In this document: piece after piece, positions 2,721 through 8,371 of the stretch | How the letters are laid out: the number at the start of each line of letters is the position of its first letter | How positions within the stretch are numbered: position 1 is the first letter of the stretch | Assembly (NCBI RefSeq): GCF_900240285.1 | Contig: NZ_OESS01000002.1 | Coordinates: forward strand, 682,001-746,000 | Origin: Halobacillus sp. Marseille-P3879 | GTDB lineage: Bacteria > Bacillota > Bacilli > Bacillales > Halobacillaceae | Length of the DNA stretch: 64,000 nucleotides | Direction: 5' to 3' | Translations under genes and position numbers: made by a program | The notes under the pieces: model-generated | Told to the model about the DNA's origin: nothing | Seen by the model: the letters and a program-made list of their open reading frames with translations, nothing else | Database searches by the model: none

Positions 2721-4052
2721 ATGGGATTAACTAGAGAAGAAATTTTCAAAAAAATTGATGAGGAAAATGTAAAATTTATTCGTCTTCAATTTACAGACAT
2801 GCTTGGGACTATTAAAAATGTGGAGATTCCATTTAGTCAGCTGGAAAAAGCGTTGGATGGCATGATGATGTTTGATGGATCTTCCATTGAAGGATTCGTT
2901 CGTATTGAGGAATCCGATATGTACTTAGTACCAGATCTTGATACATTCGTCGTTTTTCCATGGACATCTGAAAAAGGGAAAGTGGCACGTTTTATTTGTG
3001 ACATTTATAATCCTGATAAAACACCTTTTGAAGGTTGTCCGCGTTACAATCTTAAACGTAATCTCAAGAAGATGGAAGAACTTGGATTCTCTGCCTTTAA
3101 CATTGGCACAGAGCCTGAATTCTTTTTATTCAAATTAGATGAAAATCATGAGCCGACGTTAGAACTTAATGATAAAGGCGGTTACTTTGATTTGGCGCCT
3201 ACAGATCTTGGTGAGAACTGCCGCCGTGATATCGTTCTGGAATTAGAAGAGATGGGCTTCGAAATTGAAGCGTCTCACCATGAAGTAGCACCAGGTCAGC
3301 ATGAAATTGATTTTAAGTATTCCGATGCAGTGAAGCATTGTGACGATATTCAGACGTTCAAGTTGGCGGTTAAGACGATTGCTCGCCAGCACGGTCTTCA
3401 TGCTACATTCATGCCAAAACCATTGTTTGGTGTAAACGGGTCTGGTATGCACGCGAACATGTCTCTATTTAATGAGGACGGCAATGCTTTCTTCGATGAA
3501 AATGGTAAAGAACAATTGTCTGATGTCGCTTATCAGTTTACTGCGGGTATTATTAAACACGCCACAAACTTCACGGCTGTTACAAACCCGACAGTGAATT
3601 CTTATAAACGTCTTGTACCGGGTTATGAAGCACCATGTTATGTGGCCTGGTCTGGTCAAAACCGCAGTCCATTAGTGCGTGTGCCTACTTCTAGAGGTTT
3701 AAGCACACGTATCGAAGTACGTAGTGTAGATCCTGCGGCAAACCCTTACATGGCTATGTCTGTATTGCTTGCTGCTGGTCTTGACGGTGTGGAAAATAAA
3801 CTAGAAGCTCCGTCTCCTGTGGATCGTAATATTTACGTTATGAACAAAAAGGAAAGGGAAGCTCATGGTGTTCAAGATCTTCCTGCTACTCTATATAATG
3901 CATTAGAAGAGCTTCAAAAAGATGAAGTTATGGTGAAAGCTCTAGGAGAACACTTATTTGAACATTTTGTAGAAGCAAAAGAAATTGAATGGGATATGTT
4001 CAGAACGCAAGTACACCCGTGGGAAAGAGAGCAATATCTGCAAACTTATTAA
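2721..4052 (+). CDS. glnA: Glutamine synthetase type I (GSI-alpha)
   Basis: Makes glutamine from glutamate, ammonia and ATP, and in Bacillaceae also signals nitrogen status to GlnR and TnrA. 443 residues, the GSI-alpha length without the adenylylation insert. Visible are the beta-grasp N-terminus with [19 protein letters not shown] (Arg61 corresponds to the feedback-sensing Arg of B. subtilis), the catalytic domain with [11 protein letters not shown], the [17 protein letters not shown] loop and [12 protein letters not shown]. Start ATG follows AGGAGG at 2709-2714. A terminator follows closely. Confidence 0.98.
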
Positions 4053-4060
4053 TATCCCCG

Positions 4061-4095
4061 CCCCCTTTAGTCACTTGACAAAGGGGGATTTTTCT
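4061..4095 (+). terminator. Rho-independent terminator of glnRA
   Basis: CCCCCTTT (4061-4068) pairs with AAAGGGGG (4080-4087), followed by a T-rich run, 8 bp after the glnA stop. Confidence 0.85.
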
Positions 4096-4103
4096 ATTTT
4101 AAA

Positions 4104-4143
4104 AAAACCTCCAGGTGAAAGTAAAATTCACCTGGAGGTTTTT
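4104..4143. terminator. Second, bidirectional hairpin between glnA and lexA
   Basis: A 14-16 bp perfect stem around CCTCCAGGTGAA / TTCACCTGGAGG with A-runs upstream and T-runs downstream, so it could stop transcription from both sides. It lies about 160 bp beyond the lexA stop; the space between holds no supportable gene. Confidence 0.75.
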
Positions 4144-4302
4144 GCTATTGGGCAAAACGAGAACGTTATTATCGTCATTGGAAGGGGCCAAATAATAGTT
4201 AAACTGCCATACTCCAGTGGAAAACAGAGTTATGGAAGTTTATAAGTTTTATCGGGTCTGTTCACCACTCTATAACGAGAAAGAGGGATTTTTTAAAATT
4301 AA

Positions 4303-4926
4303 TTAATGTACCGTACGATATAATCCTACGACCCTCCCTAAAATAGAGACATCGTTTAAAATAATCGGTTCCATGGTTGCATTTTCAGGCTGCAGCCGGA
4401 TGTGATTACTTTCTTTAAAGAAACGTTTTACGGTAGCTTCTTCGTCTTCAGTCATGGCTACCACAATGTCTCCGTTATTTGCTGTTGTCTGCTGTCTTAC
4501 GATGACCATGTCTCCGTCTAATATTCCAGCCTCAATCATACTCTCTCCCTGAACGACGAGCACAAACGTATTGTCATCCCCTCCAGCTAAAGAATCAGGA
4601 AGCGGCACGTACTCTTCGATATTTTCAATAGCCGTAATTGGAGAACCTGCTGTTACTTTACCTATTACAGGAGCATAGGCAGCTTCTGTGCGAGGAATGC
4701 TTGTATCCTCCTCTAATTCAATGACTTCGATAGCTCTCGGTTTCGTAGGATCTCTGCGGATAAAACCCTTTTTTTCTAAACGCGATAAATGTCCATGAAC
4801 GGTTGAGCTTGAGGCTAAACCAACTGATTGACCGATTTCTCTTACGGAAGGGGGATAACCTTTTAACAACACCTGTTCTTTAATATAATCTAGTATTTCC
4901 TGCTGCCTCTTTGAAAGTTTACTCAT
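4303..4926 (-). CDS. lexA: SOS repressor LexA
   Basis: Represses DNA-damage genes and self-cleaves when RecA is activated. 207 residues, standard length. N-terminal winged HTH (residues about 1-65, [21 protein letters not shown]), the cleavage site Ala93-Gly94 in KVTAGSPI, and the S24-peptidase dyad Ser129 (QGESM) and Lys167 (ATVKRFF) are all visible, so it should be autocleavable. It is divergent from the SOS microprotein gene and yneB, with four LexA boxes in the intergenic region. Confidence 0.97.
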
Positions 4927-4988
4927 ATTTAAACACCTCGAACATAGGATTATAGTAGTTTCATTCTATCATGGGTTTTCAAAAAACA

Positions 4989-5081
4989 CAAACAAGCGTT
5001 CGAAAAACTATTGACAAGAACAGTCGTTCGTATATAATTAAATCATAAATAGCGAACAAATGTTCAGGGAACGCTTGTTCT
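4989..5081. promoter_or_regulatory. Cluster of four LexA (SOS) boxes
   Basis: Sites fitting the Bacillus box CGAAC-N4-GTTCG: CAAACAAGCGTTCG (4989-5002), AGAACAGTCGTTCG (5017-5030), CGAACAAATGTTCA (5053-5066) and GGAACGCTTGTTCT (5068-5081). The first three have one mismatch, the last has intact GAAC and GTTC cores. They lie between divergent lexA and the small SOS gene, so LexA should repress both directions. Confidence 0.85.
5011..5038 (+). promoter_or_regulatory. SOS-controlled promoter for the 5104 gene and yneB
   Basis: TTGACA (5011-5016), 16-bp spacer, TATAAT (5033-5038). A LexA box (5017-5030) fills the spacer, so LexA would block polymerase directly. Confidence 0.85.
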
Positions 5082-5103
5082 TTCAAAGGGAGAGGATTTT
5101 ATT

Positions 5104-5199
5104 ATGTTTAACAAACTTTCAAAACTGGACGTCACGTATATTTTATTATTTGCAGCAAGCCTGGCTTTCTTATACTATTCAATGGTAACGAGCGTATAA
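5104..5199 (+). CDS. SOS-regulated 31-residue membrane protein at the yneA position
   Basis: ATG at 5104 follows a GGGAGAGG site with good spacing and the frame closes with TAA at 5197-5199. The peptide begins MFNKLSKLD, then has one hydrophobic span of about 16-18 residues (YILLFAASLAFLYYSM) and ends after TSV, with nothing outside the membrane. By position (divergent to lexA, upstream of yneB, under LexA boxes) it occupies the place of YneA, the SOS division inhibitor, but known YneA is about 100 residues with a LysM domain. Whether it is a reduced YneA-like inhibitor or unrelated is inference. Conceptual translation only. Confidence 0.72.
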   Translation: MFNKLSKLDVTYILLFAASLAFLYYSMVTSV

Positions 5200-5215
5200 T
5201 TGCGCTAACAGATGA

Positions 5216-5890
<675 letters not shown>

Positions 5891-5898
5891 TATATATT

Positions 5899-5930
5899 AA
5901 GACAAGAGGCATAACGCTCTTGTCTTTTTG
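5899..5930 (+). terminator. Terminator after yneB
   Basis: GACAAGAG and CTCTTGTC arms around a short loop, followed by TTTTTG, 10 bp after the yneB stop. Confidence 0.8.
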
Positions 5931-5957
5931 TATCCCCATACTAAAAGGAGAGTTTTC

Positions 5958-6191
5958 ATGATTACGAATGAAAAATTAAATCGTATAAATGAGCTGTCAC
6001 ATAAATCTAAGGAACAAGGGTTGACTGAAAAGGAAAAAGAAGAACAGAAGCAGCTTCGTCAGGAATATTTGAAAAATGTCCGCAAATCGTTCAAAAATCA
6101 GCTGAAAGGAATGACAGTCGTTGACCCGGAAGGAAACGACGTGACTCCTAAAAAGGTAAAGCAGATGCAGGAGAACGAAAAAAAACATTAA
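5958..6191 (+). CDS. ynzC: YnzC family small protein (DUF896)
   Basis: 77-residue, very charged, helical protein of the DUF896/YnzC family, whose B. subtilis members sit downstream of yneB and tend to be SOS-associated. Recognisable motifs are LNRINELSHKSKEQGLTEKE and the EYLKNVRKSFKNQLKGM segment. Start ATG at 5958 follows AAAGGAG with ideal spacing; an in-frame start 30 bp earlier lies in the terminator region and is rejected. Because a terminator separates it from yneB, it may have its own promoter, but none is clear. Molecular function unknown. Confidence 0.9.
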   Translation: MITNEKLNRINELSHKSKEQGLTEKEKEEQKQLRQEYLKNVRKSFKNQLKGMTVVDPEGNDVTPKKVKQMQENEKKH

Positions 6192-6201
6192 AGATCTCGA
6201 G

Positions 6202-6230
6202 AAACCGCACGAATCATGTGCGGTTTTTGT
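6202..6230 (+). terminator. Terminator after ynzC
   Basis: AAACCGCAC / GTGCGGTTT stem with a short loop and a TTTTTG tail. Confidence 0.85.
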
Positions 6231-6364
6231 TTATATTATTTGGCACAAGGGAAGGTTAAATGAGGAACTTCAAAAAGAAAATCCGTTGTGAAACTTGTCA
6301 CGTAGTTCATTTCATTATACGATAATACATGTTACATACGCGTTAGAAGAAAGGGGAATTTATT

Positions 6365-8371
6365 TTGGCAAACAGTATTGAACAAAAATCCATTAATACA
6401 ATACGGACTTTAACAATTGATGCAGTAGAAAAAGCAAGCTCCGGTCACCCGGGTATGCCTATGGGTGCTGCCCCAATGGCGTACACTTTATGGTCTCAGT
6501 TTATGAATCATAACCCGGAAAATCCGGATTGGTTCAACAGAGATCGATTTGTACTATCAGCTGGCCATGGATCTATGCTTTTATACAGCCTGCTTCATCT
6601 TTCCGGCTATAAAGTCTCTATTGATGATTTAAAAGAATTCCGTCAGTGGGACTCTAAAACACCAGGTCATCCTGAATTCGGTCATACAGACGGGGTAGAA
6701 GCTACAACAGGTCCTCTTGGCCAAGGGTTGGCTATGGCTACAGGAATGGCTATGGCTGAGGCACATTTAGCTGCTAAATACAACAAAGATCAATACAATA
6801 TTGTTGATCACTATACTTTTGCTATTTGTGGAGATGGTGACCTTATGGAAGGTGTCTCTCAAGAGTCAGCCTCTCTTGCAGGTCATCTAGGACTTGGAAA
6901 GCTGGTCGTTCTTTATGATTCTAACGATATCTCCCTTGATGGAGATTTGAACCGTTCCTTCAGTGAAAGCGTGGAAAAGCGTTATGAAGCTTACGGATGG
7001 CAGGTAATCCGTGTAGAAGACGGGACGAACACAGATGAAATTACAAAAGCAATAGAAAAAGCTAAGCAAAATACAGATCAGCCGACAATGATTGAGGTTA
7101 AAACTGTAATTGGTTACGGAGCCCCTACAAAGTCCGGGAAATCAGACTCCCATGGAGCTCCACTGGGTGAGGAAGAAGTCACCGCAACTAAAGAATATTA
7201 CAAGTGGGAGCACGAACCGTTCCACGTACCTGAAGAAGTATATGAAGACTTCAACACTAAAGTTAAAGGAAACGGTGCTAAGAAAGAAGAAGAATGGAAT
7301 AAGTTATTCGATGAATACAAACAGGCCCATTCAGAATTAGCGGAAGAACTTGAGCTTGCTATCGAAGGAAAGCTTCCTGAAGGATGGGAACAAAATTTAC
7401 CAAGCTTTGAACCAGGTAAAGATGAGTTGGCTACCCGTGCAGCTTCCGGAGAAGTTATTAACTCTTTATCTAAAGCGATTCCTTATTTCTTTGGTGGAAG
7501 TGCTGACCTGGCCGGCTCAAACAAAACAACTGTTAAAGAAGAAGAGGATTTTTCTCGTAATAATTACGCCGGCCGAAACATTTGGTTTGGTGTACGTGAA
7601 TTTGCTATGGCTGCCGCATTAAATGGTATGGCTCTTCATGGAGGTTTAAAAGTTTATGGAGGGACATTCTTTGTCTTTAGTGATTATCTGCGTCCAGCGC
7701 TTCGATTATCCGCTCTGATGAATCTTCCCGTTAACTATGTCTTAACGCATGATTCTGTAGCGGTAGGAGAGGATGGTCCGACACACGAACCAATTGAGCA
7801 GTTGTCTTCTCTCCGCGCTGTCCCTAACCTGACAGTTGTTCGTCCAGCAGACGGCAATGAAACCAGCGCAGCATGGAGACTGGCACTGGAATCAAATACG
7901 ACTCCGAATGCTATGGTGCTTACACGTCAAGGTCTCCCGACTCTTGAAGGAACAAAAGAGAAAGCATATGAAGGGGTAAAACGCGGTGCGTATGTACTCT
8001 CAGATTCAGAGAAGGAAACACCTGACAGTATTCTTCTGGCCTCTGGTTCAGAGGTTCAACTGGCTGTGAAGGCTCAGAAGGAATTAAAGACGAAAGGATA
8101 CGATGTCCGAGTCGTCAGCATTCCATCCTTCGATCGCTTCGAAGCGCAGGACGATGACTATAAAGAAGCAGTTCTTCCAAACAATGTAAGACAGCGTTTG
8201 GCTATTGAAATGGGAGCTTCATTTGGCTGGGAAAGATACGTTGGACTCGACGGGGCCGTGATCGGCATTAATCGATTTGGTGCATCTGCACCAGGCAATG
8301 TTATTATTGAGAAATTTGGCTTTACTGTAGATAATGTGGTGAAACATGCAGAAAGCTTAATGAATCAATAG
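6365..8371 (+). CDS. tkt: Transketolase
   Basis: Thiamine-diphosphate enzyme of the non-oxidative pentose phosphate pathway. 668 residues, full length. Visible are the ThDP-binding GDGDLMEG...SNDISLDGD region, the transketolase motif [15 protein letters not shown] and the pyrimidine-binding domain with [27 protein letters not shown] and [16 protein letters not shown]. The start is a TTG at 6365, 7-8 bp after AGAAAGGGG; no ATG is available nearby. A weak promoter TTGTCA-17-TACGAT is possible at 6295-6323. It pairs functionally with zwf and gndA further along. Confidence 0.97.

Follow-up and report, generated by a model that had tools for sequence, protein, structure and literature searches.

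A 31-residue SOS-type membrane peptide at the yneA position in Halobacillus and its relatives, with homologues in prophages

A 31-codon ORF situated between lexA and yneB in Halobacillus sp. Marseille-P3879 is a real gene under purifying selection, and its product belongs to a lineage-wide family of small peptides that has homologous copies in prophages, neither of which formed part of the original prediction. From its locus, its LexA-type control elements and the analogy with SidA, the peptide probably serves this lineage as SOS division inhibitor and would represent a YneA of which only the membrane helix is left, without the LysM domain.

The window (the whole stretch of 64,000 nucleotides that was analysed) comes from a 4.17-Mb genome; by yneB, the named species nearest to it belong to Halobacillus (89 % for H. 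andaensis). The features of the lexA–yneB region are listed here by position in the window.

4303–4926, minus strand: lexA, the SOS repressor gene and divergent neighbour (TIGR00498, E-value 4.5e-77; Pfam PF01726 and PF00717)
4989–5002: LexA-type box 1, with no mismatches to CGAACN4GTTYG on the minus strand
5011–5038, plus strand: promoter TTGACA-N16-TATAAT, matching 12/12 consensus positions
5017–5030: LexA-type box 2, within the promoter spacer (match to CGAACN4GTTYG with 0–2 mismatches)
5053–5066: LexA-type box 3, downstream of the promoter (match to CGAACN4GTTYG with 0–2 mismatches)
5068–5081: LexA-type box 4, with two mismatches to CGAACN4GTTYG
5087–5095, plus strand: Shine–Dalgarno sequence AGGGAGAGG, read from the sequence
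5104–5199, plus strand: ORF of the 31-residue membrane peptide, MFNKLSKLDVTYILLFAASLAFLYYSMVTSV, 31 codons from ATG to TAA
5231–5890, plus strand: yneB, resolvase-like (NF049883, E-value 2.6e-104)
5958–6191, plus strand: DUF896 gene, ynzC-like (PF05979, E-value 5.6e-32)

The four LexA boxes and consensus promoter that had been predicted are thus in place (the sites span 4989–5081), as is the 31-codon gene with its ribosome-binding site, and a G-rich site before the peptide start is also present in the relatives compared below for substitution rates. The gene was further said to stand in the place of yneA without encoding a LysM domain, and this too agrees with what is found: it fills the lexA-X-yneB slot, points in the same direction as yneB, which begins 31 nt downstream, and its product matches no Pfam, NCBIfam or PHROGs model (no NCBIfam family at an E-value of 1 or below). 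A single membrane helix is predicted in the peptide by inspection. A literature search found nothing on the 31-residue peptide, subscription journals being mostly outside its reach.

The coding status of the ORF is evident from its relatives. The peptide is encoded upstream of yneB in 53 of 80 named lexA–yneB relatives (kept from 112), with carriers in Halobacillus, Thalassobacillus, Terribacillus, Sediminibacillus, Virgibacillus, Oceanobacillus, Gracilibacillus, Ornithinibacillus and Terrihalobacillus and in one unclassified Bacillales metagenome-assembled genome; in one of these (L043) the aligned position lacks a start codon, and the frame probably begins four codons further upstream. Within the family of the window genome it is encoded in 43 of the 44 genomes searched and in all six genera. 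The conservation of the reading frame that the original prediction proposed to look for is pronounced: over 17 hand-chosen close pairs, the window sequence being a member of six, the pooled pN/pS is 0.096 (186.5 synonymous changes at 334.5 sites, 63.5 non-synonymous changes at 1186.5 sites), and the ORF of Halobacillus sp. A5 differs from that in the window by nine synonymous and no non-synonymous changes. We considered whether the ORF might be the frameshifted remnant of a longer yneA, but no such gene was found. Only 15–60 nt separate the stop codon of the peptide from yneB at all 54 loci (the 53 relatives and the window), which excludes room for a LysM remnant, and this together with purifying selection on the frame rules the possibility out. 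A LysM-bearing YneA relocated elsewhere in the window genome was also sought; there are 19 LysM matches, of which none lies within 5 kb of the LexA-like sites listed first in the genome-wide scan, and the 1.8 kb surrounding the shortest of the LysM frames (124 aa, C7:77700) is free of LexA cores. Among the 27 relatives without the peptide, 24 have a LysM-type YneA frame (23 recognized by motif and L055 by eye; that of L057 is only 77 aa long) and three (L047, L063 and L070) have neither.

LexA-type sites are not abundant as such. Across the whole window 67 loose matches are present against 77.6 expected, which is not above chance, and strict sites (within one mismatch of CGAACN4GTTCG) number 51 in the genome compared with 125 for a reversed control. 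What goes beyond chance is the clustering of the sites and not their number, since three of the 51 strict sites are packed into 78 bp at the peptide locus. At least two LexA cores lie within 250 nt upstream of the peptide at 54 of 54 loci (at least three at 35), as against 26 of 1453 background pieces of 250 nt. The genes near such sites support the view that LexA uses this motif in the window genome: among 11 strict sites chosen by hand and fetched, four have SOS-type genes just downstream (two Y-family polymerase genes, a uvrB-like gene and a yolD-like gene). The arrangement of a promoter with a LexA box in its spacer recurs at 46 of the 54 loci, and from this motif pattern we regard the promoter of the peptide gene as putatively LexA-controlled.

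In a profile search with the peptide that covered 47 families of the order with 397 genomes, matches with E-values below 1e-6 occurred only in the five families labelled f1, f2, f13, f32 and f36, amounting to 49 genomes by row count. Forty further lexA–yneB intervals, chosen from these five families and 22 others, yielded 16 peptides (f2, 7/7; f13, 5/6; f32, 1/1; f36, 3/3), 18 matches to a YneA profile, 17 of them with LysM, and six intervals with neither (L157 of f13, L163–L165 of f10, L173 of f22 and L183 of f42). In a tree of 101 LexA+YneB rows, in which some named species are represented again by anonymous rows, a single split with support of 1.0 unites all 61 peptide rows with one other row, L047, which has neither gene; peptide carriers form one clade. 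The YneA-profile match without LysM (L182, genome G139, f21) is an ORF of about 60 aa with a YneA-like frame, comprising a transmembrane segment and a short non-LysM tail, a build like that of SosA. The L183 interval contains a LexA core and a GTG-started ORF of 34 aa with one hydrophobic stretch and no LysM, ending just before yneB. In the tree this f42 locus (row L188) nests among LysM carriers (support 0.968 with L187 and L199, 0.783 with L187 alone). Counting these f42 and f21 ORFs, each from a single genome, with the peptide clade, LysM-less forms are present in three lineages. We note that the same f42 genome, G084, also encodes at C1:156540 (L230) another copy of the ORF with 65 % identity, whose neighbours look by eye like molybdenum-enzyme genes. 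The remaining intervals without a peptide-profile match (L163–L165, L173, L063, L070, L047 and L157) have no YneA frame either, and in these the checkpoint gene seems to have been lost or moved.

The relationship of the peptide to YneA is clearer from position than from sequence. Both occupy the same lexA-X-yneB slot, but when a profile of the peptides was scored against YneA-type N-termini, with shuffles that keep the hydrophobic pattern as the reference, only six of 40 transmembrane segments reached p<0.05. The best of the 40 is a LysM-bearing YneA of f45 (L179; p 0.002), a full LysM protein with 76.1 bits to NF010723 against a cut-off of 60 and a PF01476 LysM domain, and the second best is the 34-aa LysM-less ORF of f42 (p 0.006). 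The NF010723 cut-off is passed by the YneA proteins of L060 and L179, whereas the 31-residue peptide has no match. Similarity to the helices of the B. subtilis group is unsupported by the shuffles (p 0.17–0.98), so clear transmembrane homology to B. subtilis YneA was dropped, and an f7 sequence (L178) that aligns well by eye has a shuffle p of 0.13. In an ungapped overlay made by eye, with YneA numbering inferred from L060, peptide residues K7, Y12, I13 and F16 coincide with YneA K5, F10, V11 and F14. According to PMC13396833, alanine changes at YneA K5, E6, F10, V11 and F14 nearly abolish toxicity, and K5, F10, V11 and F14 are required for midcell localization; the peptide residue aligned with E6 is not acidic. 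Descent of the peptide from YneA is indicated by slot and by control elements, to which the sequence itself adds a perhaps.

Across 52 distinct peptides (an alignment that omits L043, the f32 peptide L159, L161 and L162) residues D9, F16 and Y24 are invariant. The periodicity of conservation within residues 9–29 is most pronounced at 100 degrees per residue (permutation p 0.0055), and the conserved face of the helix is made up of D9, Y12, I13, F16, S/T19, L20, L23 and M27. A single conserved face of this kind suits packing against a protein partner. The sequence of events that we envisage is that DNA damage leads to cleavage of LexA, which would clear the four boxes and let the peptide gene be expressed from a promoter of its own, in front of yneB. 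The product would insert with its N-terminus inside (Lys4 and Lys7 being cytoplasmic) as one helix with almost nothing outside, and the face containing Asp9, Tyr12, Phe16, Ser/Thr19, Leu20 and Leu23 would pack on a membrane helix of the divisome. The likeliest partner, we infer, is transmembrane helix 7 (TM7) of FtsW, where the YneA helix binds, and septal synthesis would be held off without a LysM domain, as it is by SidA in Caulobacter. It speaks against this proposal that the TM7 columns L196/V204/P206 of FtsW read I/A/T in the window genome, where the residues known to contact YneA are thus not kept; they read L/A/P in an f13 genome and I/A/P in an f2 genome, a partial retention, and these three peptide-bearing genomes are too few to judge co-variation.

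The family search also returned 14 rows outside the lexA locus, of which 12 were fetched. Homologues of the SOS peptide are present in prophage early operons, where they overlap a yqaH-like gene. Such a gene lies directly upstream of the second-copy peptide at ten of the 12 loci (L111, L112 and L114–L121), with a RecT-like gene at nine of the ten, a YqaJ-like gene at seven and an HTH gene at nine; the YqaJ and RecT assignments are strong, and those of YqaH are below the Pfam cut-off (26.7 and 20.1 bits against 31). These peptides are 28–34 aa long, and at all ten loci their frame begins inside the yqaH-like gene, 8–23 nt short of its end. A one-strand scan of the 400 nt upstream of them revealed no LexA core. 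With the chromosomal profile the best scores per genome range from 2.9e-10 to 1.6e-5, and nine of the ten loci have E-values of 2.2e-6 or better, L120 being weaker at 1.9e-4. L113 and the weak match L122 are without a yqaH-like neighbour, and two further weak rows fall within frames of 464 aa. Second copies that overlap or abut the end of the preceding frame also occur in other families (L231, L232 and L233, from genomes G343, G188 and G183), and L233 has RecT-like and AAA neighbours. An alignment of 11 second-copy peptides searched against the 397 genomes returned mostly chromosomal copies, and matches inside 282-aa frames in f43 were taken as chance. No match was obtained when phage and plasmid collections were searched by tblastn with the 31-residue peptide, or the phage collection with one prophage peptide and with the YqaH-like protein, and of 25 stretches examined in a viral-contig scan with the YqaH-like protein, none was confirmed; because a 31-residue query is a weak one, the empty phage and plasmid searches are not evidence of absence.

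The original prediction left a choice between the minimal active part of an SOS division inhibitor and a new type of SOS membrane peptide. The former is favoured, and a YneA-derived inhibitor preferred, on the grounds of synteny, the clade pattern and the bridging sequences, although L047, which lies inside the clade, and L157 of f13 lack the peptide and are counted against it. A new SOS gene could instead have displaced yneA, perhaps from a prophage yqaH-operon and with no descent from YneA, and it might still stop division. The prophage homologues at ten of the 12 fetched loci would be accounted for in this way, as would transmembrane similarity to most YneA helices that is no better than that of shuffles; yet the LexA boxes and the slot have been retained, LysM-less ORFs fill this slot in two other lineages (f42 and f21, one genome each), and the f45 protein bridges the transmembrane sequences, so that we consider displacement unlikely.

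Small E. coli peptides with a single helix under LexA control, namely TisB and DinQ, provide another precedent, according to which the peptide would be SOS-induced and act on the membrane itself and not on the divisome. Its size, its one helix and its LexA-type control agree with this, but the position belongs to a division inhibitor gene, and one face of the helix is conserved, as expected for a protein partner. The antisense element of such systems is not apparent, there being no promoter-like site on the minus strand in 4900–5260 and no Rfam family at gathering score in 4000–6600, two results that would be compatible with an antisense RNA all the same, and overall we think this reading rather improbable. 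Regulation of larger membrane proteins by small single-span ones is common, and the peptide might in the same manner tune a transporter, a sensor or another membrane protein outside the divisome during the SOS response, or work with YneB, with which it would be co-transcribed given the common direction and the 31 nt spacing. Nothing in our results suggests such a partner and the peptide is present without yneB at the prophage loci, which leaves little to recommend this idea.

Returning to the YneA-derived inhibitor, we put forward tentatively, and with some doubt, the broader proposal that one almost tail-less helix constitutes the complete SOS checkpoint of a clade of Bacilli, having arisen through repeated loss of LysM from YneA, and that this helix is found in prophages too, in translational coupling with a YqaH-like gene. 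If so, the helix would inhibit FtsW in the plane of the membrane, which the present model of YneA holds to be insufficient, and host SOS response and phage would share one molecular tool against septal synthesis; the prophage copies suggest phage use of the same helix. A helix-only clade under strong purifying selection amounts to a natural experiment, in which either the helix gained inhibition or FtsW responds to the helix. This is relevant to how small membrane proteins stop FtsW; in YneA of B. subtilis, binding through the helix can be separated from inhibition through LysM.

The closest comparison by locus is with B. subtilis YneA, whose helix, according to PMC13396833, suffices for midcell localization and for binding to FtsW at TM7, whereas septal synthesis is stopped only if LysM binds to peptidoglycan, a helix without it being inactive. 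This speaks against inhibition by the peptide helix. The peptide resembles that protein in its lexA-X-yneB slot, LexA-type boxes and one N-terminal membrane helix, and in a short cytoplasmic N-terminus with lysine and an acidic residue and aromatics at matching spacing, but it has no LysM or extracellular part and only 31 residues as against about 103 in the compared loci. SosA of Staphylococcus aureus is likewise LysM-less, an SOS division inhibitor encoded adjacent to lexA with one transmembrane segment; according to PMC6851548, it is 77 aa long with an essential extracellular C-terminus, loss of 30 or 40 residues abolishing activity, whereas the peptide ORF ends after the helix. For the prophage copies a parallel, by description only, is Gp11 of phiNM1, a small early phage membrane protein of 53 aa with two transmembrane helices that blocks division and targets MurG and DivIC (PMC11237401). 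SidA of Caulobacter crescentus, according to PMC4211646, is a 29-aa SOS-induced inner-membrane division inhibitor acting through FtsW, and AlphaFold 3 models place it on the other side of FtsW TM7 (PMC13396833). The peptide shares with SidA a length of about 30 aa, one transmembrane helix (by inspection) and SOS-type control elements, and may likewise act on FtsW; it comes from an unrelated bacterium and another locus, and the likeness is one of build and not of compared sequence. The peptide is nearest to SidA in build and nearest to YneA in locus.
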